A DNA stretch of 64,000 nucleotides, taken from a virus. The notes beneath the pieces are model-generated. The model saw nothing but the letters and a program-made list of their open reading frames with translations, did not search any database and was not told where the DNA came from. The stretch spans positions 21,777 through 85,776 of the IMG/VR virus record IMGVR_UViG_3300046794_000505; one strand, 5' to 3'. Shown in pieces: positions 3,739-63,063 of this stretch; position 1 is the first letter of the stretch; each line of letters begins with the position of its first letter. The translations under genes were made by a program, and so were the position numbers.

Positions 3739-5796
3739 CTACACCTCTCCGTCGTCGTACTCCCGCACCGCGAACATGTCGCACCCTGGATCCTTCTTCT
3801 GAACGATGAAGTTTCTCAGGGTGCAGCGGCCTGTGTCTGGATCGAACGCCGAACACCGTCCACACACACCCTGCGGTAGCGGATCGACCATCGCCACCAC
3901 ATGCGCTGGCAAGCCTGGCATTGCTTCCACGATTGCCTCCTGACCTGGGGTCTGGGTTTTCTCTTGGGGTAGGATGAACGTTGAGGTTCCGTGCGCACGC
4001 GACCAAGCCACATCGCACAGCTGGTTGGCATAGCTGAAGTGGGGGTCAATGCCGACCTTCTGCACCTTGCGCTTGTACTGGTTGGTCTCTTCGTCCTTTT
4101 CGGCGACCAGCGCCGTCTTGGTGAAGTGATGGAACGCGCGACGCGCAGGTGACGCCGTGATGATGCCTTCCTTGTCGCGGATGTCGTCCTGCACGATCTG
4201 GTCAGGATCCGGCCATAGGCAGGTTGGCGGATCCGAGGTGAATCGCGCCAGGGAGATCTGCATGGTGCGGAACTGATCGGCCTTCACCGTCCAGCGGCTG
4301 CGCATTTCGTCATCGGTGCGACGATCAGAGGCGTCCACCTTGCCGCGGTCGTGCCATTCGATCAACTCGCCATTTGTCAGAGCTCCGAAGCCGTCACAGA
4401 TGAACACGCGGCCAGGGTGACGCTTGGCGAAGGCGTGGGCCTCGTTGAAGTTCGGGTTGCCCTCCACCACGCAGCAGGCGACCCCATAATGGTTCATCAG
4501 CTCCGAGCAGCGACCGAACGGATCCTCACTGTAGATTTCCTCGATATGGACCACCGCCTGGCTGCCATCCTCCAGGCGCTTCTTGATGATCATGGCGTTG
4601 AACTGACCCATCTGGTCAATCCCGGCGAATGTGCCCTTCCCTCCCTTCTCCCACTTCAGCCCACGCTCAACCCCGTAGCGAACGCAGCGGTTCATATGCT
4701 CGAGCGTCACCGGGATCTGATCCGGGTTCAGGTACGGCTTCCCCAGCACCCGGTTGTAGAAGTTCTTCTTGTCGGTCGAGATCTGCCACTTGTACATGAT
4801 CTCGCCCGGAGTGATCGTCGGCGAGAGCATCTGCGGGAAGTGGGCCGACAGGATCAGGGCCTTGCTCGGATCGCCGGCGATCCACTCACCGTCTTGCGGA
4901 TCATCGATCCAGTGACCGGATTCGCAGACGTAACGGTACAGGCCGGGGATGCCTGTCAGGGAATCCACTGCATAAGGATCCCACTGGATGCACGCCGGGA
5001 AATAGTCGTCGAGCGGTTTCATGGCATCGCAGGTCGGACATCGCGTATGGAACGCGTGCCGGCTGCCCAGCAGGTACATCGCGTGGATGTCCGATTCTGG
5101 CCAGTTGGCTGTCGAGCCCATCAGCACATAACGGTACTGTGAGGCCGACACCCGCTCCATGGTTTTCTCGATCTGGGCCGAGGTCATCTCCTGGACCTCG
5201 TCGAAGTTCAAAAAGTCCATCGGGACGGATTCTGTTGTGGCGCGGCCGGACGTCCAGGCGAACAGGTACAGCGCATCGCCGATCTGACGGACCGAGACGT
5301 TGCCCTCGCCGCTCTTGCGCCCGTTGCCGTCCATGGCCTCCATGGTCATGCGTTTGTGCGCCTCGGGCACAGTGCGCACGATCGGCATGAAACGGACGCT
5401 GGATTTGATCTGCGCCAAGCGCTGGTCGGGCAGGAACATCCCAATGGTGCACGGCTGGAATTTCAGACCGAGGTAGATCGAGGCGAGGATTTCCATGATG
5501 GTGAACCCCACCTGGGCACACTTCATCAGTACCAGCTGGCGCCGGTAGCACTCTTTCATGGTCGAGGGGATTTGATCATATAGCCAGGCCATCGCTGGGC
5601 GGTCATGGAGCGTGAACGGTTTCCCGTCGACCTTCAGGCCTTTGCGCCCAAGATCCTCGCACCACTCACGGAACGTGACATCGTCCTCGACAGCCTTGTC
5701 CTCAAGCTTGAACCCAGTCTTCTGCTCGAGCCGGGCCAGCATGTCGGTGAGCCCACCGCGATAATCGATTTTCCCCGTTCCGCTGCCGTATGCCAC
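3739..5796 (-). CDS. Terminase large subunit, GpA family
   Basis: 685 residues. This is the packaging motor ATPase and nuclease that translocates DNA into proheads and cuts genome ends. Visible signals: a lambda gpA-style deviant P-loop (KCAQVGFT, residues 92-99, with Lys at the front rather than before the Thr), Walker B FLNFDE (195-200), coupling motif VLMGSTA, and a nuclease domain starting at FAGIDQMGQFN with later VVEGNPN and CDGFG. The C-terminus has four Cys (CGRCSAFDPDTGRCTL...PGCDMF), a likely zinc site. The start is GTG at 5796, after a GGAAGG-like site. It is unusual that it lies more than 50 kb from the capsid genes and converges with a fibre gene. Confidence 0.93.
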   Translation of the reverse strand: MAYGSGTGKIDYRGGLTDMLARLEQKTGFKLEDKAVEDDVTFREWCEDLGRKGLKVDGKPFTLHDRPAMAWLYDQIPSTMKECYRRQLVLMKCAQVGFTIMEILASIYLGLKFQPCTIGMFLPDQRLAQIKSSVRFMPIVRTVPEAHKRMTMEAMDGNGRKSGEGNVSVRQIGDALYLFAWTSGRATTESVPMDFLNFDEVQEMTSAQIEKTMERVSASQYRYVLMGSTANWPESDIHAMYLLGSRHAFHTRCPTCDAMKPLDDYFPACIQWDPYAVDSLTGIPGLYRYVCESGHWIDDPQDGEWIAGDPSKALILSAHFPQMLSPTITPGEIMYKWQISTDKKNFYNRVLGKPYLNPDQIPVTLEHMNRCVRYGVERGLKWEKGGKGTFAGIDQMGQFNAMIIKKRLEDGSQAVVHIEEIYSEDPFGRCSELMNHYGVACCVVEGNPNFNEAHAFAKRHPGRVFICDGFGALTNGELIEWHDRGKVDASDRRTDDEMRSRWTVKADQFRTMQISLARFTSDPPTCLWPDPDQIVQDDIRDKEGIITASPARRAFHHFTKTALVAEKDEETNQYKRKVQKVGIDPHFSYANQLCDVAWSRAHGTSTFILPQEKTQTPGQEAIVEAMPGLPAHVVAMVDPLPQGVCGRCSAFDPDTGRCTLRNFIVQKKDPGCDMFAVREYDDGEV

Positions 5797-16644: not shown

Positions 16645-16974
16645 TCACGAGGTGGCCACGTCCGGCCCGGGGGTCTGGGGGAGCATCTGAACCCAGTGCT
16701 TTTTATTCGTTTCGTCCCGCTCCCATCGCCAACCTGCGCCGTGCAGCATTTTCATTTCTGCTTTGATCAGCTCGTGGAACTCTTCGTGGTACCCCTCACG
16801 CATCGCGCGCAGCCGGAACACTTTCTCATTCTTTAGGATGTCCCGCGCGGCCCGCCACACCTTGTCGGCGACCAGACGCCAGGCGGCGCGCTTGCACTCA
16901 GGCGGGAAGTCCTTCACTGGCAGACGCCCCGCCCAGCACTCATCGGCGACCTTTACCGGATCAGCGACGATCAT
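16645..16974 (-). CDS. Hypothetical phage protein
   Basis: 109 residues, helical and charged, with AAWRLVADKVWRAARDIL and HEEFHELIKAEMKML. Ends just before a strong terminator, so it is the last gene of the leftward unit that includes phaZ. No family recognised. Confidence 0.6.
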   Translation of the reverse strand: MIVADPVKVADECWAGRLPVKDFPPECKRAAWRLVADKVWRAARDILKNEKVFRLRAMREGYHEEFHELIKAEMKMLHGAGWRWERDETNKKHWVQMLPQTPGPDVATS

Positions 16975-17344
16975 TGATCACCTCCTTGAGCAGTCGCTGC
17001 AGCGTTCTCAGCCTGGCGCGAGCGACTTCATCACCAACCTCCTTGATCGCGGCACCCATCAGCGCTTCTGCCTTGGCCAATTGCTTAACGGCCTTTTCAT
17101 AGGCAGTTTTCGGCCGATAACCAGTCAGCGGATTGCGCTCAGCCAGGAGGTTCCAGTAATTGTCTTTGCAGTTGTCGCTGCCGCTATTCGAGCAAAACAC
17201 CGTGTTGTAGCGATTCTTGATGAGTTTGCTCTGGCAGACAGGGCAGCACACTTCAGCGCCGATCGAAGCCGCCTTGACGACCTCATAGCATGCCCTGGCA
17301 TCTGCCGCGCTGCGCGGCTCCGTCTGCATGACATTCGAATCCAT
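16961..17344 (-). CDS. Zinc-ribbon protein
   Basis: 127 residues from MDSNVMQTEP, with ribosome site GGAGG. CCPVCQSKLIKNRYNTVFCSNSGSDNC is a four-Cys metal site, followed by a helical C-terminal half (AVKQLAKAEALMGAAIKEV; ARLRTLQRLLKEV). It overlaps the next gene by 14 bases. Likely nucleic-acid-binding; unknown role. Confidence 0.6.
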   Translation of the reverse strand: MDSNVMQTEPRSAADARACYEVVKAASIGAEVCCPVCQSKLIKNRYNTVFCSNSGSDNCKDNYWNLLAERNPLTGYRPKTAYEKAVKQLAKAEALMGAAIKEVGDEVARARLRTLQRLLKEVINDRR

Positions 17345-17355
17345 GATTGCCTCCA

Positions 17356-18267
17356 TCACTGATTGACGACTGTTGGATTGCGCTCTTCGGTCAGGAATCG
17401 CGTGACCAGCGGCCCGACCGTTTTGGCCTGGGTGACCAGAAATAGATGCCCGTCATTGATGACATGCAGGTCAGCGTTAGGCATGCGCTGGGCCATCCTG
17501 CGCATGTTGACCAGCGGAATCAGCGGGTCATCGTTGCCGGCCAGCACCAGGGTGGGCTGCCTGATCTTGTGCACCCAGTGAATGCTGGTCCACATATACA
17601 CCGCCATCATCTGGTAGTAATAGCCGCGGCCGCCGGAGGATTGCATTTTCTCGGCGTAGGCCGCAGCCAAGGCCTTATCGCTCCGGAACACCCCACCATA
17701 GATGTACGGGGCGATCTTTGCGCCGTATGCCGGGCTCGTATAGCGCAGCGGGCTGGACATCAACCACAGGACCTTGAGTGACGGCGGCACCATAAACACA
17801 CCACAGGATGTCGCCGCGAGGATGAGCTTTTTGCAGCGCAGTGGATGATCAAAGGCGAACTGCTGGGCAAGGAAACCGCCCCACGACACGCCGATCACAT
17901 TGACCTGGCCGTAATCCAGATAGTCCAGCATCTGGGCCACCAGCCGTGCCAGTCCCGAAAACCCATATGGCAGCACTGGCGTTGAGGAGCCCCCCACGCC
18001 AGGTACGTCGAAGGCGATCACCTCCTGTTCACGGTCCAGGGCTTCCATGAACGGGATGACCAATTCCAGACTCGCACCGATACCGTTGAACACCAGCAGC
18101 GGGGTCAGGTGCGAACTGCCAGGGCGAACCAGCGTGCGGATCGACTGCCCATCGATTTCGATGGTACGGATGACCAAGGCTTTAGTCGGAGCACCCCGTC
18201 GATTCGTCTTGCGGCGCTCAGGGACACCAAGTTTTCCTTCGTCGAACGACTCGTTTAGATTGCTCAT
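17356..18267 (-). CDS. phaZ: Intracellular poly(3-hydroxyalkanoate) depolymerase (PhaZ-like)
   Basis: 303-residue alpha/beta hydrolase matching the Pseudomonas medium-chain-length PHA depolymerase PhaZ, which hydrolyses stored polyester in cytoplasmic granules to hydroxyacids. Seen: RPGSSHLTPLLVFNGIGA, IAFDVPGVGGSSTP, DYLDYGQVNVIGVSWGG (Ser128), TLVLAGNDDPLIP (Asp247) and INDGHLFLV (His274). From memory the Pseudomonas putida triad is Ser102/Asp221/His248; all three are offset here by exactly 26, matching a charged N-terminal extension (KLGVPERRKTNRRG). The start overlaps the stop of an HTH gene, so the two are co-transcribed, behind a terminator at 18997. It looks like an auxiliary metabolic gene; granule mobilisation during infection is inferred. 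Confidence 0.9.
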   Translation of the reverse strand: MSNLNESFDEGKLGVPERRKTNRRGAPTKALVIRTIEIDGQSIRTLVRPGSSHLTPLLVFNGIGASLELVIPFMEALDREQEVIAFDVPGVGGSSTPVLPYGFSGLARLVAQMLDYLDYGQVNVIGVSWGGFLAQQFAFDHPLRCKKLILAATSCGVFMVPPSLKVLWLMSSPLRYTSPAYGAKIAPYIYGGVFRSDKALAAAYAEKMQSSGGRGYYYQMMAVYMWTSIHWVHKIRQPTLVLAGNDDPLIPLVNMRRMAQRMPNADLHVINDGHLFLVTQAKTVGPLVTRFLTEERNPTVVNQ

Positions 18268-18986
18268 GATAATCCTTTAGATCTAGACACGACCGGAGTG
18301 GTCAAGGCTTGATGCAGTGTCATGCCACGATGGATCCTGGCGCTAATGGTACCGATGGGAATTCCTGCCGCTGCCGCATGATCCGACAGATTGCGCACTG
18401 CGCCACGGTGTTCGGCGTGTTTACCCTGCTTGCGAAACACTGGGTTCAACCCCTGGGCCACCAGATAGGAGCGCATGGTGGTGACCGAGCAATAACCGAG
18501 GAACGAAGCGGCCTGGGTCTGCGAGTACTTCGACGCGTGCAGATCCAACCATGCGGCGATCGTTATCCCACTGCCCTGCTTGAAGCGCGCGGCCACTGGC
18601 AAATAGGTCGTTGCCGACCATGGGTTATCACCGGGTCGCTTCGCCAAGTAGCGATAAAGTGCCCGGGCGTCGTACTCGAGTCGCTTCGCGGTCGCGTTGA
18701 TAGACAACCCTTCTGCCTGCAGGTCGGCCAGCACCTCATCAAACAGCTTGCCGTATTGCATTTCGATGGCCAGTCGCCGCGGCGCGATCAGGATTGACGG
18801 GTTATCGCCGCCGGCGCGTTTCGCATAGCCGAGTGCTTCTGATAGTTTCCAGCCGCGAGCTTTGCGCGATCGCACAGTCGAAGGGGATAAGCCTTGGCGT
18901 GCGGCGTGCTCTGGAATTGTCCCAACAAACCCGCCCAGGTCGTAGGAGAAATAATCCATGTCGCGTTTTTTCTTCACTGATTCCAT
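18264..18986 (-). CDS. Multi-HTH DNA-binding protein upstream of phaZ
   Basis: 240 residues with three helix-turn-helix-like segments: IPEHAARQGLSPSTVRSRKARGW (18-40), GLSINATAKRLEYDARALYRYLAKR (about 93-117) and NLSDHAAAAGIPIGTISARIHRGM near the C-terminus. Tandem HTHs of this kind are common in phage homing-type or regulatory proteins. Start could be ATG 18986 or ATG 18959. It overlaps phaZ by 4 bases and may regulate it or its own promoter. It follows a terminator by only a few bases. Confidence 0.65.
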   Translation of the reverse strand: MESVKKKRDMDYFSYDLGGFVGTIPEHAARQGLSPSTVRSRKARGWKLSEALGYAKRAGGDNPSILIAPRRLAIEMQYGKLFDEVLADLQAEGLSINATAKRLEYDARALYRYLAKRPGDNPWSATTYLPVAARFKQGSGITIAAWLDLHASKYSQTQAASFLGYCSVTTMRSYLVAQGLNPVFRKQGKHAEHRGAVRNLSDHAAAAGIPIGTISARIHRGMTLHQALTTPVVSRSKGLS

Positions 18987-18995
18987 GGTCCATTC

Positions 18996-19022
18996 TCAAA
19001 AATCGCCCGGTGTCACCCGGGC
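18996..19022 (-). terminator. Probable Rho-independent terminator (leftward)
   Basis: 6-bp stem GCCCGG / CCGGGC (19005-19022) with a 6-base loop, followed on the minus strand by GATTTTTG. It lies between the 19029 gene and the HTH-phaZ pair, only 10 bases before the HTH start, leaving no room for a normal promoter between them. Confidence 0.65.
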
Positions 19023-34875: not shown

Positions 34876-35409
34876 TTATTTTGTCGGCGGCGTGCTCTGT
34901 GCAAGCAGGACGTCTTTGGCTTGGCTTCCATGGCTTGAGCCAAAGTAGAAAGAAAGGATGAGCATCAGGCCGTCACGAAGCGTGGCGATAAGGTCGTTGG
35001 CGGTCCCATCCGTTGGTATCCCGACGCCGGTCAGCTTCAGTCCAGTGATGATGCAAAACCCCAGTACAAACAGCCATGCGAGCACTGGCAATGTGTAGGA
35101 CTTGGTGCTGACCTGCATCGACCGAGCATTGGCGCGGTCCGACACTTCGGCTGAATATTGATCCGTTTCGAATTTCAGCTGTAACCCGAGCATCGTCTCT
35201 TGATGCGTCTCTTCGAACTGCTTGGCCTTGAGCGCAGCGTCTGCGTTAGCCGTCAGTGCATTCAGGATGTCGTTCGGGTCAGCACTCTTGGCGCCCAGTG
35301 CCGAAGCCAGGGCCGTTCCGATCGCTGCACCTCCGGGGATCGGCAGCACCGCGCCGAGCAACGGCAACCCAACGCGGGCGAGTTCACCACCGAGATCTTT
35401 CCAGTCCAT
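34876..35409 (-). CDS. Holin-like protein (3TM family)
   Basis: 177 residues starting MDWKDLGGELARVG; an upstream in-frame start is less likely. An N-terminal Gly/Ala hydrophobic region (GLPLLGAVLPIPGGAAIGTA), a helical middle (KAKQFEETHQETMLGLQLKFETDQYSAEVSDRANAR), then two membrane segments (YTLPVLAWLFVLGFCIITG and GLMLILSFYFGSS). This is the layout of the holin family with three membrane segments. It follows the endolysin directly. Confidence 0.8.
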   Translation of the reverse strand: MDWKDLGGELARVGLPLLGAVLPIPGGAAIGTALASALGAKSADPNDILNALTANADAALKAKQFEETHQETMLGLQLKFETDQYSAEVSDRANARSMQVSTKSYTLPVLAWLFVLGFCIITGLKLTGVGIPTDGTANDLIATLRDGLMLILSFYFGSSHGSQAKDVLLAQSTPPTK

Positions 35410-35954
35410 TATGAAACCCCCAGGGCTGCTTTCGCCGAGCCCCATAAAACCAGCCGATCTGCGAGACCATTGAGACCTCCATTGATACGACGGGTGATCG
35501 TTTCGAACGCCCCAGCATCGGCCAAGTCGTTCAGATTATGCGCATTCCAGAACCAAGCCGCCGAAAGCGCCGCGTTATCCGGGTCCTCTAACAGCTCCGG
35601 ATGATCGACCAGAGACAGGTTCAGCGCCACTGCCGCTGTCGTGTAGTTGGCACGCCCGGTGACCTGGATCAGACCGCGACCGCGATACTTGAAGCCGTCA
35701 CCGACCGCGATATTGCCGAGGTCGGCACGGCCCTCATAACCTTTCTGCTGCGCGGTCGGCCCCCACAACTCATGAACGTAGACCAGACGGCCAGACTCAT
35801 GACCGACCTGCGCAAGGAACGCTGCTTGGCGTACTGGGGTGTCGATGCTGTATAGCGCCATGGCGGCGCTAAGCGGATCGGCCCAAGTGGTGGCGCGAGC
35901 GGGTGGAATACCGAGTGCAACAGCGAGATCTTCGGGGCTCATTTTCTTACTCAC
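35409..35954 (-). CDS. Endolysin, glycoside hydrolase family 19 (chitinase-like)
   Basis: 181 residues. AFLAQVGHESG (E53), QQKGYEGRADLGN (E74), GDGFKYRGRGLIQVTGRANY, SAAWFWNAHNLNDLADAGAFETITRRINGG are the GH19 lysozyme/chitinase landmarks. It cleaves peptidoglycan for lysis. It lacks a signal peptide, so release needs the holin genes on either side. Confidence 0.92.
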   Translation of the reverse strand: MSKKMSPEDLAVALGIPPARATTWADPLSAAMALYSIDTPVRQAAFLAQVGHESGRLVYVHELWGPTAQQKGYEGRADLGNIAVGDGFKYRGRGLIQVTGRANYTTAAVALNLSLVDHPELLEDPDNAALSAAWFWNAHNLNDLADAGAFETITRRINGGLNGLADRLVLWGSAKAALGVS

Positions 35955-43863: not shown

Positions 43864-44022
43864 ATGCTTGACGAGTTGATCCCACTGTCTGTGTTGGCGC
43901 TAATTATCATCATCATGATCCTTGGCACTGCGTGGTTGGTCTGGATGTTCAGCGCAGAGGGCCAAGACGCCAGGCGATTTAAACGAGAAAACAAGGGTCG
44001 CCGGAAAAGCGATCAATACTGA
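43864..44022 (+). CDS. Small single-pass membrane protein (52 aa)
   Basis: MLDELIPLSVLALIIIIMIL followed by GTAWLVWMF and a basic Lys/Arg-rich tail (RRFKRENKGRRKSDQY). Hydrophobic N-terminus, cationic C-terminus. A holin or inhibitor is possible; unknown. Confidence 0.55.
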   Translation: MLDELIPLSVLALIIIIMILGTAWLVWMFSAEGQDARRFKRENKGRRKSDQY

Positions 44023-44080
44023 GTAATCTGATTTTCAAAAAATCAGGCTGGTCAGAACCAGAGAATCACCGAGCGCCGCC

Positions 44081-44260
44081 ATGAACACTACCAAGATAGT
44101 CCGCATATTAACCACCCCGATGTACCGTGACGGCCTGATCTTGCAAACCTCCATTGAGTTCGCAGCGTTCTACAAGCTGTTCTTACGCTTAGGTGATCAC
44201 GGTCTCTATTGTGAAATCCGTTACGAGATGACCCCAACCTATCGAGGTATAAAGCCATGA
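44081..44260 (+). CDS. Small hypothetical protein (59 aa)
   Basis: MNTTKIVRILTTPMYRDGLI, then FAAFYKLFLRLGDHGLYCEIRYE; stop overlaps the start of the next gene (ATGA). Unknown. Confidence 0.5.
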   Translation: MNTTKIVRILTTPMYRDGLILQTSIEFAAFYKLFLRLGDHGLYCEIRYEMTPTYRGIKP

Positions 44261-51177: not shown

Positions 51178-52896
51178 TTACGCGGATGCACTGCCGCTGA
51201 ACGGCACCGCAAAAATGGTGATCGGAATGTAGTTGATCGGGATGACCGGACTGCACTGGAATTGGATTCGCAGGACATCACCCTCAAGCGCTACAGTGAT
51301 GTTTTTGTACGGCGGATTCGTCGCGTCACCTACCAGAACACCTGGGCCATTAGGCGCAGGCAAGGAGAGCTGACGCAGCGTGCTTTCAACGATGGTCAAG
51401 GCACGACCCATGTTGACGGGGTTGGCACCTTCACCACGCAACACATCCATCGCCTGACGCACATTGCGTGCGGTGAAGTCCAGCGCGACACCGACTGACT
51501 GCTCAACGCGGTTGTAGTTGTCGTTGGTGAGCCAAGTGCTGATCGATTGCACAACCTTAAAACCGCTGGTCACATCCTCGACACAGAGCACACCACCGGT
51601 GATGAGAGGGTCGGTATCGGTCGGATTGCGCAACTTGCGTTCAAGGCCGCGAATTTTCAAAGCCTTGTTGGTCATGGTGGTGCCAGGATTACTGCCGCAG
51701 AACGCGCCGGCAATCTGGGCCGCCAGAATGTAGGGGGCGAACAACGTCAGCGCGCCGCTGTCGTCATAGTCATAAAACCCTAGGTGAACCAATGATGTGC
51801 GATCACTATTAAGCGCCTTCGCCGCTGCAATGGCCTGACTGTCCGTGGTGGCCAACGCCGTACCACAAATCCCGCGTCGCTCCATACGGGCAATGTTCGA
51901 CATATACGCGCAATGCGCATCGTTCATGGCGTGAATCGCCGGATCACTGCTCAGCGGAGTTACCCACTGCACGTCTTCAGACTGAAGAACCTGGTCATAG
52001 GCATTCGACCAGTTCGTATTGGTGACGGTGCCATCAGAACCACCGGACAGATAAGTCCAGTTGATGTTCGCCGGCGGCTTACCAACACCAGGCACGCGGA
52101 CAGCGTCGACGAATCCTTCGGCAGGCCCATTGATATAATCAACAAAAGCCTGGAGGTCTGCGCGAGCGGTATACGCCGCAGTTTTCACGTCCTGGACACT
52201 CACATAATCCAGACCGTTGAGCGCGGGCTTGTCGGCATTCCCATCGAGTACGGCAGCGCTGAAACCGGAAACAGCATTGATCCGATCAACCAGTTCCTGA
52301 ATCGAATCGTAGGCATTCAGGTCAATGGTCGCCACAGTGGTGCCGCTCGGAGCCTGCAGAACAACAGAGGTTCCGGTGATCGACATTACCCCAGTAACTT
52401 GTGCACCTATGTACTGCACCTGGAAGGCATCACGGTGGACGTCGTCCTGTGTGTAATACGCATTGCCGCGCTGAGTCGAAACCTTCATGCCACGGTTGGT
52501 GGCTGTCTCGATCTTGAACTTCACCTGATTTGCCACCAGACCGTAGTCAGTCGATTTCAGATTGACTACGGTCACCGGTGTCAGATCGCTAAGGTCCAGG
52601 GTTGCCTGAGTTGCAGGATTGACCCGAACGAAAACGATCTCAGATGCAGCTCCAGTTTGCGACGATGGATCAAAAGCCTTTTCAATGGCCGTCAGACCAT
52701 CACCGCCTTGAAGTGCAGCACGAGCTTCGGAGGGGCTGCCAAACCGCAGAGCGGTATTCGGCTGGCCGGCTACGGATCGACCGACGATGGCCTGCACGTT
52801 AGCGACCGATAAGCCGCGGTTGAACATGGCAGAATCATCCACCAAGCTCATGGTTGCCGGGGAGATCCACAACCGGCCATTAAAGAAAACAGGCAT
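51178..52896 (-). CDS. Tail sheath protein
   Basis: 572 residues. The C-terminal third (GVLCVEDVTSGFKVVQSISTWLTNDNYNRVEQSVGVALDFTARNVRQ), central KALNSDRTSLVHLGFYDYDDSGALTLFAPYILAAQIAGAFCGSNPG and N-terminal GLSVANVQAIVGRSV identify the phage sheath family. It proves a contractile (myophage) tail. Confidence 0.9.
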   Translation of the reverse strand: MPVFFNGRLWISPATMSLVDDSAMFNRGLSVANVQAIVGRSVAGQPNTALRFGSPSEARAALQGGDGLTAIEKAFDPSSQTGAASEIVFVRVNPATQATLDLSDLTPVTVVNLKSTDYGLVANQVKFKIETATNRGMKVSTQRGNAYYTQDDVHRDAFQVQYIGAQVTGVMSITGTSVVLQAPSGTTVATIDLNAYDSIQELVDRINAVSGFSAAVLDGNADKPALNGLDYVSVQDVKTAAYTARADLQAFVDYINGPAEGFVDAVRVPGVGKPPANINWTYLSGGSDGTVTNTNWSNAYDQVLQSEDVQWVTPLSSDPAIHAMNDAHCAYMSNIARMERRGICGTALATTDSQAIAAAKALNSDRTSLVHLGFYDYDDSGALTLFAPYILAAQIAGAFCGSNPGTTMTNKALKIRGLERKLRNPTDTDPLITGGVLCVEDVTSGFKVVQSISTWLTNDNYNRVEQSVGVALDFTARNVRQAMDVLRGEGANPVNMGRALTIVESTLRQLSLPAPNGPGVLVGDATNPPYKNITVALEGDVLRIQFQCSPVIPINYIPITIFAVPFSGSASA

Positions 52897-57158: not shown

Positions 57159-58604
57159 TTAAACGGTGAATGGACGCCAGACTGCACCGTTCGGCACGAT
57201 GTTTTTGATCACAACGTGGTGCTTACGCTTGGCAATTCGCAGGTAGCCGAACATCAGCTGAGCCCATGGGATGGTGGCGCTTACGGTTGGGTACAGCGGG
57301 AACTTCAGCATCGGCAACAGCTGACGCCAGTTGATCGCGGAATCACCTGGGTTGCAGTTGAGGATGTAGGCGCTGGTGGCGCCCGGGATGTCGCGGTTGA
57401 AGTCGGTGTACACGGTAGTTGCACCAGCCTTCGCCACACGAGCCATCTGCCGGAAGTCAGTCACAGCGTTGGTGCCGTTCTGGCGGCCGCGATAGATCAC
57501 GTAGCCAGTTTCAGCGCCGCCGACCGATGCCGTAATGGTCAGTGCAACCTTCTTGCCTGCCGCTACCGTCACTTGGGTGGAGATAACCCCGGTGGATTGG
57601 CCGCTGGCATTGATGCCAGTGACCAGGTAGTAGTAGTTGCCAGCGCGCGCGGCGGTGAACTGCGACGACGCATCGGTCACAGTAGCGTCAGGAGTCACGC
57701 TCACTGGCTTGAAGACATCGTTGGTCACAGCCAGAGAGGCGAAACCCACCTGAAACGGCATCTGCTGCGCTTCGTCACGGATGAATACGTCCGGCACGGC
57801 GGCGACATTGCCCCAGCTTGTACGGATGCCAGAAACCGGCGAGCCGAGCATGATGCTGTTCGGCTGGTTGTCCAGCGCTACACGCCAGGCCGGATCGAGA
57901 CCGGTGTCGAAGTCGGCCTGGGTCGATTGCGACATGAACAGGTGGGTCGGCGTACCGAAGTTTCCGTAGCCGCTGATGGTCGCGGCGCCCTTGTTGATCA
58001 GGTCGATGCTCGCCAGGCTTGCGCCTTGGGCATCCAGTACGTGATCGGGGCTGCCGAGGCTGTTGATCTGAACCTCGATACCGTCGAACTCGGTCGGAAC
58101 CACCGAGGAATCGCCTTCGAAGCACAGGAACTCGGCATCGGTCAGCAGCTGCTTGGCACCGTTCTGCTGCTCGACAGCTTCCGAGTCAGCGATGGTGTTT
58201 TGCAGCGATTGAACCAGAGTCACTTCGCGACGGGTCATCAGGTACTTCACAGTACCCACGCGGCGAGCGTAGTCGCCGGTTGCCGCGGCAATAGTGCCGG
58301 ATTCGGTGTTGGTCGAACCACCGAGGAAACCACCGACGCCGGACTGTTCGGTCCATTCGTCCACGGTCGCCGTCGCGTTACCTTTGGCGATCAGATTGAA
58401 CAGACGGAAGTGCTTGTTCTCCTGAATGGTCGACATCATGGTTTTGTCGAGGGACTGGATGCGGAGCGCGCCGCCACCGGTCAGCGTAGCAACGTCAGTG
58501 CCGTAACCGGCAGAGAGTGCTTTACGCAGTTCGGCGATGCTTTCCATCCCCATGTCGCCGGTGGTCGAAGAACCGGCAGCCAAATTTGGCAGATTGATGT
58601 TCAT
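57159..58604 (-). CDS. Major capsid protein
   Basis: 481 residues. N-terminal MGMESIAELRKALSAGYGTDVATLTGGGA, KHFRLFNLIAKGNATATVDEWTEQSG, EVTLVQSLQNTIADSEAVEQQNGAKQLLTDAEFLCFEGD and C-terminal YPTVSATIPWAQLMFGYLRIAKRKHHVVIKNI are typical of an HK97-fold capsid subfamily of myophages. An inserted Ig-like/fibronectin-like domain (about 285-375, RAGNYYYLVTGINASGQSTG) may face outward for display. It shares a 44-bp exact segment with the protease gene. Confidence 0.9.
   Translation of the reverse strand: MNINLPNLAAGSSTTGDMGMESIAELRKALSAGYGTDVATLTGGGALRIQSLDKTMMSTIQENKHFRLFNLIAKGNATATVDEWTEQSGVGGFLGGSTNTESGTIAAATGDYARRVGTVKYLMTRREVTLVQSLQNTIADSEAVEQQNGAKQLLTDAEFLCFEGDSSVVPTEFDGIEVQINSLGSPDHVLDAQGASLASIDLINKGAATISGYGNFGTPTHLFMSQSTQADFDTGLDPAWRVALDNQPNSIMLGSPVSGIRTSWGNVAAVPDVFIRDEAQQMPFQVGFASLAVTNDVFKPVSVTPDATVTDASSQFTAARAGNYYYLVTGINASGQSTGVISTQVTVAAGKKVALTITASVGGAETGYVIYRGRQNGTNAVTDFRQMARVAKAGATTVYTDFNRDIPGATSAYILNCNPGDSAINWRQLLPMLKFPLYPTVSATIPWAQLMFGYLRIAKRKHHVVIKNIVPNGAVWRPFTV
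58468..58511 (-). repeat. 44-bp direct repeat, capsid copy
   Basis: Exactly identical to 59527-59570 in the protease gene, same strand, separated by about 1 kb. It encodes AGYGTDVATLTGGGA near the capsid N-terminus. Confidence 0.9.
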
Positions 58605-60477: not shown

Positions 60478-61686
60478 TCAGATCACCTTCCATTCTTCGC
60501 GGCGACGTTTCATCAGGTCACAATATTTCTGATAGGCCGCGCTCTTGGTCGGACTGAAACCCAGGCCCTTGCACCAGTAGTCATTCTTCAAGAAAGTTTT
60601 CACGATCTTGCGCCAAGTCGGTACTTTACCTCTCGACTCCAAAGACTTGTCGGCCTGATCAGGGATGCCATCCGGGTAACCGCGCTTGCTCCACCACTTC
60701 AGGTACACGGCCAGTTTGTTCCGGTAATGCTCGGCCGTGGTCTTGGGCATCGTCTTCAGCAGGTGATGCGCAAAGCTTTCGTAGGTATGCCCCTCTGGCA
60801 GCGCCACGCTGTGATTGCCTAGAACCGCCCCTTTCTCGTTGCTGTACATCTTGCCGCTGTTGGCCCCCGCACAGCGCAGGACCACCTTCGCCCACATCCC
60901 AGGATCTACAACTTGGTACAGCCACAAGCCTTTGCGCGCCTCATCGCCGAACGGCTCGCAGATACGCATTTGACTGATCTTCATCCCGGCCTGGTGCATC
61001 CGGTCGTATAGGCGGTTGTACGGCAGTCCGGTCTTACCGTGGTAGCGCCAGATATCTTGGGTGCGCCAGTCGTAAATCGGATAAGCGTTCCACGCATCAC
61101 CGGCCACATTGGTGGTCCACATCTTGCCGTTAAAGGTCGGCTTGTCGGCGCGGGCCACGGTGCGGAAGCGGTTCAGGCTTTCGTCGGCACGAATACCCAC
61201 GAAACAAGCGCAGGTCTTGCCGTCGGCGTACCACTGCGCGAAGGCCGGCACGAATTCTTCAAACGGCATGCCCTCATAGTAAAACGGATAGGCGCCTTTA
61301 TCTGTCACGCTCATGGCGTCTGGCAAGCGTACCCAAAGGTCACGCTTGCTCTCGCCCCAGGCCGTCCATTCAGGCTCAATCTGGCTACAGGCGTTCCACG
61401 TCTTGATCGGCAGGGCGACCCAGTGCAGCTCGATCCACTCGGCGTACAGTTCGAACATCTGCTTGGCGAAATCCACCGTAAGGCCAATCTGGCATTCCCA
61501 GTCGATGAACAGGATGCCAATCTTCTGGTTGCGTTTTTTGGCCTCATCCATCACCAAGTGCAGCATAACCGTCGAGTCTTTTCCGGCGCTGAACGACAGG
61601 TAAATCTTTTCGAAGTGATCGAAGGTGTAGACGATCCGCTCCCTAGCCGCGACCAGTACATTTATTCCCAGTCCGCGCTTAGGCAT
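60478..61686 (-). CDS. IbrA-like PAPS reductase-family protein (DUF3440)
   Basis: 402 residues. SFSAGKDSTVML (31-42) is the PP-loop of adenylyl/PAPS reductase-type ATP pyrophosphatases; FIDWECQIGLTVDF, NAYPIYDWRTQDIWRYHGKTGLPYNRLYDRMHQAGMKISQMRICEPFGDEARKGLWLYQVVDPG and the C-terminal GKVPTWRKIVKTFLKNDYWCKGLGFSP are hallmarks of the DUF3440/IbrA family. IbrA and IbrB are known from Escherichia coli as activators of phage-borne eib genes; enzymatic action is not settled. Sulfur transfer to nucleic acid is plausible by homology with DndC but unproven. Start overlaps the GNAT gene by 8 bases. Confidence 0.85.
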   Translation of the reverse strand: MPKRGLGINVLVAARERIVYTFDHFEKIYLSFSAGKDSTVMLHLVMDEAKKRNQKIGILFIDWECQIGLTVDFAKQMFELYAEWIELHWVALPIKTWNACSQIEPEWTAWGESKRDLWVRLPDAMSVTDKGAYPFYYEGMPFEEFVPAFAQWYADGKTCACFVGIRADESLNRFRTVARADKPTFNGKMWTTNVAGDAWNAYPIYDWRTQDIWRYHGKTGLPYNRLYDRMHQAGMKISQMRICEPFGDEARKGLWLYQVVDPGMWAKVVLRCAGANSGKMYSNEKGAVLGNHSVALPEGHTYESFAHHLLKTMPKTTAEHYRNKLAVYLKWWSKRGYPDGIPDQADKSLESRGKVPTWRKIVKTFLKNDYWCKGLGFSPTKSAAYQKYCDLMKRRREEWKVI

Positions 61687-62056: not shown

Positions 62057-62444
62057 AGCTCTCTCCCCACTCATGAATCGCTTGATCAGCAACTGTATTG
62101 GCTGCGTCTTGTTGCTCCTGGCTCAGTGTGCGCCAACCCAGTCGCGTCATATCCTCCGATGCGCCGTGATTCAGTGCGCAGGCAGCCGCACCGATCCAGG
62201 CCTGGTGATTTATCACTGAGGCGGTCAAGTTGGATTCGCAGCTGTTCGGCCATTCTGCAATCACCCGCAGGCATGCCGCCTTGAAGCGCTTGCTGTCGAT
62301 CATCAGATCTGCCGACGCTTGAACTGCCTCGGCGCGCGCCTCAACATCCAGCGTTTTCCACATCGGCCCGTCATACTCTTCGCACTTCAGGTAGTGGTGA
62401 TAGACCCGCTTAAACTTGCGCTTCGTCAATTTCTTCTGCCTCAT
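62031..62444 (-). CDS. Hypothetical protein of the Ibr cassette
   Basis: 137 residues from MRQKKLTKRKFKRVYHHYLKCEEYDGPMW; overlaps IbrB by 35 bases. The basic start is followed by helices (VQASADLMIDSKRFKAACLRVIAEW) and a C-terminal NHQAWIGAAACALNHGASEDMTRLGWRTLSQEQQDAANTVADQAIHEW. The helical C-terminal segment is recurrent in phage proteins near ParB-like genes; function unknown. Confidence 0.6.
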   Translation of the reverse strand: MRQKKLTKRKFKRVYHHYLKCEEYDGPMWKTLDVEARAEAVQASADLMIDSKRFKAACLRVIAEWPNSCESNLTASVINHQAWIGAAACALNHGASEDMTRLGWRTLSQEQQDAANTVADQAIHEWGESYARRAVVA

Positions 62445-63063
62445 CCGTGAATGACTCCGCTTCCCACGCCTCTGAGAAATCCTCGTCGGCGAACAGTCCG
62501 GCCAAGCCGGTGATCTGCTGTAGGCGCAGCACCTCATCGGGCTCCATGCCAAGCTCTTTTGAAATACGCTCATCACTCCAGAATCGGCGCTTCAGCTCGA
62601 CAACGATGTCCGACATGCTTTCGACCTTGTGCGCACCTCGGGCCCGGTTATGGCGGATCGTCGAGGCCATGCGGTCGTTCTTGTCTTGCTGTCCAGGATT
62701 GATCGATACCACCGGCAGATAGCCGTGAATGCGCTCGCGGACTAGATCAGATTCCTTGCCGACGCGGTGCCGGTGGAAGCCGTCCACGACCTCGATACCA
62801 TTATTTGGCCAAGTGACGATGGGTTGTGTATAGCCGTCGCTAAGGATCGAGTGTTCCAGCAAGCGCATTTCAGGTGGCGCTACGCTGTTCGGGTTGTAGT
62901 CGTTAGCGTGAATCTGATCGTTCTTAACCCACTCGACGAAATCGACCGGCTCAGACTTGAAGGGGCTGTAGGCGTGAATCTGACGACGCAGCTCATTGAT
63001 TGCCTCAATGCGAGCATCAATGGGGAGCGCCTCCAAGTATGAAAAGTCCAGAAGATCACGCAT
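62410..63063 (-). CDS. IbrB-like ParB/sulfiredoxin-fold protein
   Basis: 217 residues, starting MRDLLDFSYLEALPID; ATG overlaps the upstream DUF4406 stop by 8 bases. The ParB-like domain shows ANDYNPNSVAPPEMRLLEHSILSDGYTQPIVTW and EVVDGFHRHRVGKES (ParB/Srx active-site-like GxxRxx). The C-terminal HTH is DERISKELGMEPDEVLRLQQI. IbrB partners with IbrA in other phages. A longer reading frame starting at 63276 is rejected because it runs through the DUF4406 gene. Confidence 0.85.
   Translation of the reverse strand: MRDLLDFSYLEALPIDARIEAINELRRQIHAYSPFKSEPVDFVEWVKNDQIHANDYNPNSVAPPEMRLLEHSILSDGYTQPIVTWPNNGIEVVDGFHRHRVGKESDLVRERIHGYLPVVSINPGQQDKNDRMASTIRHNRARGAHKVESMSDIVVELKRRFWSDERISKELGMEPDEVLRLQQITGLAGLFADEDFSEAWEAESFTDEAEEIDEAQV

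Follow-up and report, generated by a model that had tools for sequence, protein, structure and literature searches.

Intracellular PHA depolymerases of the PhaZ type mobilise carbon stored by the bacterial host, and their products serve as a supply of carbon and energy. PHA granules, in which this carbon is kept, can hold a large share of a cell's carbon in bacteria of the soil and in those associated with plants. In Pseudomonas, the mcl-PHA depolymerase PhaZ is a cytoplasmic enzyme encoded in the phaC1-phaZ-phaC2-phaD-phaFI cluster. The published catalytic triad of PhaZ consists of Ser102, Asp221 and His248 (PMC10003648). Bacteriophages have also been connected with PHA metabolism, as phage-carried PHA-synthesis genes (phaC, phbB, fadD and others) were described as auxiliary metabolic genes (AMGs) in PHA-producing mixed cultures (PMC12013262). 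A search of the open-access literature found no phage gene or AMG reported as phaZ or as a PHA/PHB depolymerase, and the GenBank phage collection contained no match above 33% identity to the protein described below. This agrees with a preliminary description of the DNA analysed here, whose author knew of no well-described phage example.

In this work, we describe a phaZ-like gene located in a stretch of viral DNA of 64,000 nucleotides, called the window throughout. The gene is encoded on the minus strand, where the frame from 18267 to 17356 is open for a 303-aa product, and the plus-strand reading of 17356-18267 contains stops. The features discussed in the text are collected in Table 1.

Table 1. 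Features of the window phage, given as window positions; G010 is a related phage genome introduced in the text.
Feature	Coordinates	Strand	Description
Terminase large subunit	3739..5796	-	phrog_675, 278 bits; PF05876
Next gene of the HTH-phaZ unit, after the 127-aa gene	16645..16974	-	109 aa; 83% conserved in G010
Gene downstream of phaZ	16961..17344	-	127 aa; PHROG family of unknown function
phaZ-like gene	17356..18267	-	303 aa; intracellular PHA depolymerase family; TIGR02240, 438 bits
Catalytic His274 codon	17446..17448	-	invariant in the alignment
Catalytic Asp247 codon	17527..17529	-	virus-type Asn245 two residues earlier
Nucleophile elbow GVSWGG, residues 126-131	17875..17892	-	Ser128 codon at 17886-17884; virus-type Phe132 next
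Charged N-terminal extension, residues 1 to about 30	18178..18267	-	alignment and pLDDT
HTH gene, upstream of phaZ	18264..18986	-	240 aa; weak helix-turn-helix matches
Terminator-like hairpin	19005..19022	-	6 GC pairs, then GATTTTT; upstream of the HTH-phaZ unit
Endolysin	35409..35942	-	phrog_181, 226 bits
Site matching the phaZ position of G010	44022..44257	+	window phage without phaZ there
Contractile tail sheath	51178..52896	-	phrog_279, 241 bits
Major capsid protein	57159..58604	-	phrog_752, 304 bits

The 303-aa protein almost certainly belongs to the PhaZ family. It matches TIGR02240 (PHA_depoly_arom, NCBIfam), an equivalog model for the intracellular PHA depolymerase PhaZ, with an E-value of 1.2e-131 and 438.2 bits against a curated cut-off of 250.6 bits, and the second-best family, PcaD (3-oxoadipate enol-lactonase), reaches 110 bits. 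Ser128, Asp247 and His274 are invariant in an alignment of 26 sequences comprising the window protein and its relatives, and each of them lies exactly 26 residues after its counterpart in the published triad. An AlphaFold (AF2) model built from the alignment (pLDDT 86) displays the standard alpha/beta-hydrolase order. Its fold neighbours in the PDB are alpha/beta hydrolases and esterases, including B. thuringiensis PhaZ, an intracellular PHB depolymerase (8ynv, TM 0.71), and the AHL-degrading enzyme Est816 (5egn), and the best fold matches in a viral structure library are remote, with 17-18% identity. The N-terminus is charged and, by inspection, has no hydrophobic stretch, as expected for an intracellular enzyme; its extension is predicted to be disordered (pLDDT<50 for residues 1-27), and most relatives do not possess it. 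These results bear out several points of the preliminary description, namely a full-length PhaZ-like hydrolase in a phage, the offset of 26 residues from the P. putida catalytic positions, the long conserved blocks around them, which are seen in the alignment, and the charged N-terminal extension.

The source record comprises 85,776 bases with an exact 127-base repeat common to both ends, and the open reading frame of a reverse transcriptase belonging to a diversity-generating retroelement (DGR) runs unbroken across the joined record ends. The genome is therefore closed, at about 85.65 kb, and phaZ is not part of a host flank. The carrier is a complete myophage genome of this size: portal and baseplate genes are present besides those for the terminase, capsid, sheath and endolysin, and no match to a tyrosine integrase was found in the window phage. 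Its host is likely Pseudomonas. When isolates are ranked by capsid protein, Pseudomonas phage Touem01 comes first (52% identity), followed by phages of Morganella and Bordetella (51%) and by Dolphis and Jeremy, which infect P. putida (47%). A search of 350 Pseudomonas genomes with the capsid protein, run without a positive control, revealed no matching prophage.

The DGR of this phage is located at the contig ends. Its 387-aa reverse transcriptase, with a YVDD motif, extends on the minus strand from 63.77-64.0 kb of the window into L002:1-932. A repeat of 145 nt occurs in three copies (L002:844-988, 1546-1690 and 2240-2384), two of which lie at the 3' end of a receptor-like gene each, and the three are probably one template and a pair of variable repeats. 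Next to the capsid genes lie two more genes, for a PAPS-reductase/DUF3440 protein and for a ParB-like protein (window 60478-61686 and 62410-63063); G010 is devoid of orthologues of both, which marks a second variable cargo spot.

Two statements of the preliminary description concerned the surroundings of phaZ, and each of them stood in part. Translational coupling to a multi-HTH protein was proposed, and a 4-base overlap, ATGA, between the upstream gene (18986..18264) and phaZ is indeed real, but the helix-turn-helix assignment is weak, with an HTH_28 match of 27.9 bits vs a cut-off of 25 for the 240-aa protein. A terminator was placed directly before phaZ. The hairpin (19022..19005) exists; however, it precedes the HTH gene and is not directly upstream of phaZ, and a scan of the region returned 6 such terminator-like sites vs 3.3 expected by chance.

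A complete related phage, G010, is 90,791 bases long and likewise bears an end repeat of 127 bases; it has 81 of 124 genes in common with the window phage, at a median identity of 80%. In its genome, the orthologues of the window HTH gene (86% identical) and of the 127-aa downstream gene overlap directly, without phaZ between them, and represent the empty site. G010 carries its own phaZ (74% identity) elsewhere, among tail genes. The divergence between the two phaZ genes (pS 0.60) falls within the ordinary range of orthologues of this pair (median 0.57), so relocation and independent gain are equally possible.

Relatives of the gene recur among viral contigs. At least 54 other IMG/VR contigs carry phaZ relatives, with 38-74% identity to the window protein; they were collected in two profile-guided scans, which gave 42 loci and then 54 (12 new). 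The 42 proteins from the initial scan all score above the TIGR02240 cut-off, and the phaZ frame is full-length in nearly all viral loci. The carrier contigs range from 5 kb fragments up to 228-307 kb, with phage hallmark or typical phage genes close to phaZ, and grouping the loci by neighbours in common within 6 kb yielded 15 gene contexts besides that of the window. The terminase profile PF03237 was matched in 3 of 21 phaZ carriers, a result that is uninformative because these phages carry other terminase families, as indicated by PHROG matches. A PhaC query in the same kind of IMG/VR scan returned 1 locus vs 54 for phaZ, and in every host cluster examined phaC adjoins phaZ; the disparity speaks against stray host DNA as the source and in favour of selection acting on phaZ alone. 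PhaC, PhaD, PhaF and PhaI are encoded neither in the window phage nor in the first 42 viral loci, as expected if only PHA breakdown is wanted.

Some individual contigs deserve separate mention. The single PhaC locus of the scan lies on the 48.4-kb contig UViG_3300047443_000189 (L152) and encodes a PhaC-like PHA synthase (54% identity), which is possibly a phage gene acting in the direction opposite to phaZ. A more distant PhaZ (L200:6013-6789, 45% identity) is encoded by the giant viral contig UViG_2974641675_000001 (279.8 kb), and perhaps comes from phages of another PHA-making host. On a 116-kb viral contig carrying phaZ, a protein resembling nicotinamide phosphoribosyltransferase, an enzyme of NAD metabolism, was recognised by eye (L010:229-1971). 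On another phage contig, phaZ immediately follows a gene that by eye resembles the DGR reverse transcriptase of the window phage (L011:8834-10882); nearby genes there reach 91% identity to genes on the DGR side of that phage, and these modules therefore seem to move between phages.

A phaZ gene was found in 320 of 350 Pseudomonas genomes, nearly always in single copy; among the other gammaproteobacteria sampled, the TIGR02240 cut-off was passed in 1 of 273 genomes outside Pseudomonas. The window protein is 66-71% identical to PhaZ of the phaC1-phaZ-phaC2 cluster. In a first, looser tree, 80 Pseudomonas chromosomal copies formed a single tight clade with no viral copy inside, and the viral rows needed 3 changes. 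In a more careful tree, the Pseudomonas chromosomal clade was recovered with support of 97/98, and the viral copies formed its sister branch with support of 90/88, which is below the tree tool's own threshold (unstarred); both lay inside the more distant PhaZ homologues of Caballeronia and Cupriavidus. A separate viral branch beside Pseudomonas PhaZ is, on these trees, suggestive but not conclusive. Recent capture from a host was considered and rejected, since none of the matches listed from the 350 Pseudomonas genomes is nearer than 70% to the window protein, with viral copies reaching 74%, and since no viral copy arises from within the host clade. Concerning the checks named in the preliminary description, the protein groups with PhaZ and not among non-PHA alpha/beta hydrolases, and the choice between a phage-only clade and recent host capture falls to an old, phage-dominated branch.

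Five virus-type residues (S66, F132, P162, V223 and N245) separate the two branches, and at these positions the outgroups are host-like, or at least not virus-like. Phe132 is present in 17 of 18 viral representatives, with Ala at this position in 80 of 80 Pseudomonas copies. In the sequence, the virus-type residues flank the oxyanion loop, nucleophile elbow, cap and acid loop, and consequently specificity may have shifted, either in chain-length preference or towards another ester substrate. The dN/dS values among phage phaZ copies are 0.04-0.22, similar to those among host copies, and GC content correlates between viral phaZ and its carrier (r=0.93, n=18), which together point to an old phage resident under purifying selection.

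A PhaZ falling inside the viral branch was also identified on the megaplasmid pPL1 of Pseudomonas silesiensis (NZ_CP143488.1, 1.17 Mb; L004:2983-3864), in a strain from a plastics landfill. This copy is of the virus type (F132, P162, N245), and a phage-plasmid transfer is possible.

Judged from sequence comparison, the gene is best explained as a Pseudomonas-type PhaZ, with an intact catalytic site, that has long resided in phages. We assign a probability of roughly 0.7 to the reading that it encodes a phage-adapted PHA depolymerase, acting as an AMG that mobilises host mcl-PHA during infection. Weighing against it are the virus-type substitutions beside the active site, the absence of further PHA-pathway genes accompanying phaZ and, for the separate viral branch, the support below the threshold, the Pseudomonas plasmid copy falling inside and the 3 changes needed in the looser tree. 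With respect to the attributes by which AMGs are recognised, a host-type metabolic gene lies inside a bona fide closed phage genome, and its upkeep by selection in phages is seen in the low dN/dS and the 15 contexts. We infer PHA as the substrate, the targeting of granules, expression during infection and a benefit to the phage. In the proposed mechanism, a cytoplasmic PhaZ-type serine hydrolase would be made in the infected cell and would attack the surface of mcl-PHA granules through Ser128-His274-Asp247, releasing (R)-3-hydroxyalkanoic acids. These acids could then be converted by host acyl-CoA synthetase and beta-oxidation to acetyl-CoA, NADH and ATP, which would support phage replication in carbon-starved, PHA-rich cells. 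The gene itself would behave as single-gene cargo, moving between unrelated phages and genome sites. With somewhat less assurance, we also favour a broader proposal, in which an old phage-specific lineage of PHA depolymerases with a re-tuned active site would travel as cargo among unrelated tailed and jumbo phages of Pseudomonas and its allies, and granules would be a routine viral source of carbon and energy. The findings suggest that phages widely tap the bacterial PHA carbon reserve.

Other explanations have to be weighed against this one. Granule breakdown could serve mainly to clear bulky granules, or to free 3-hydroxy fatty acids that help lysis or alter signalling in the host, with the feeding of replication secondary. 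The sequence holds nothing that separates such a purpose from carbon mobilisation, and the position of the gene varies among phages; nevertheless, we consider it unlikely, as phaZ showed no link to a lysis cassette or regulator and the established role of PhaZ products is to supply carbon and energy. Somewhat less credible still is a PhaZ-derived esterase that has turned from granules to another ester, such as short hydroxyalkanoate oligomers, acyl-homoserine lactones or lipid esters. The virus-specific residues around active-site elements would fit such a change, as would the esterases and Est816 among the fold neighbours, but the passage of all 42 viral proteins above the equivalog cut-off, the conservation of the triad and long blocks, and the 66-71% identity to bona fide cluster PhaZ speak against it. 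The single-gene insertion between genes that are adjacent in G010 may recall a neutral passenger (moron), recently acquired and unused; this is very improbable in view of the host-like dN/dS in phages, the full-length frames in nearly all loci, the GC content matched to carriers and the recurrence in 15 contexts. IMG/VR contigs are metagenomic, and a handful of projects supplied several of them. Even so, contamination with host DNA, a chimeric sequence or the edge of a prophage can practically be dismissed, since phaZ is flanked on either side by phage genes in a closed genome, a second closed relative (G010) carries phaZ at a different site, 54 phaZ loci stand against 1 for PhaC, and the viral copies separate in the trees from all chromosomal copies of Pseudomonas.

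The question of whether viruses draw on stored polymers now becomes testable. A deletable single gene, a relative with the empty site and a catalytic-serine control together constitute a clean system for asking if storage governs the yield of the phage. Plastics work could also turn to the viral clade for dozens of diverse PHA depolymerases, and the existence of viral phaZ is a warning for PHA fermentations.

Among known systems, the phage protein is closest to the Pseudomonas mcl-PHA depolymerase PhaZ, with which it has in common the fold, the Ser-Asp-His triad, the GVSWGG box, the length and the predicted cytoplasmic location. In contrast to that enzyme, it is encoded in a phage genome outside any pha cluster, falls on its own branch with the five virus-type residues, and bears the 26-residue charged N-terminal extension. 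Phage tail-spike depolymerases, directed at capsule or exopolysaccharide, are virion-bound polysaccharidases with an unrelated fold and place of action, and their likeness to phage PhaZ is limited to the word 'depolymerase'. A function of the protein as a tail or lysis depolymerase was itself ruled out by its fold, the absence of an export signal and its variable genome position. The mycobacteriophage 'esterase/lipase' (phrog_789) also has an alpha/beta-hydrolase fold, but it belongs to a non-PhaZ family and is 28-32% identical over parts only. The phage AMGs reported from PHA-producing mixed cultures likewise touch PHA metabolism, but they would build PHA, and neither phaZ nor 'depolymerase' is mentioned in that report (PMC12013262). 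Cyanophage AMGs that redirect carbon and energy through photosynthesis and the pentose phosphate pathway are similarly host-derived and thought to supply resources for replication; they are not homologous to phage phaZ, which would instead mobilise a stored polymer in a heterotroph.
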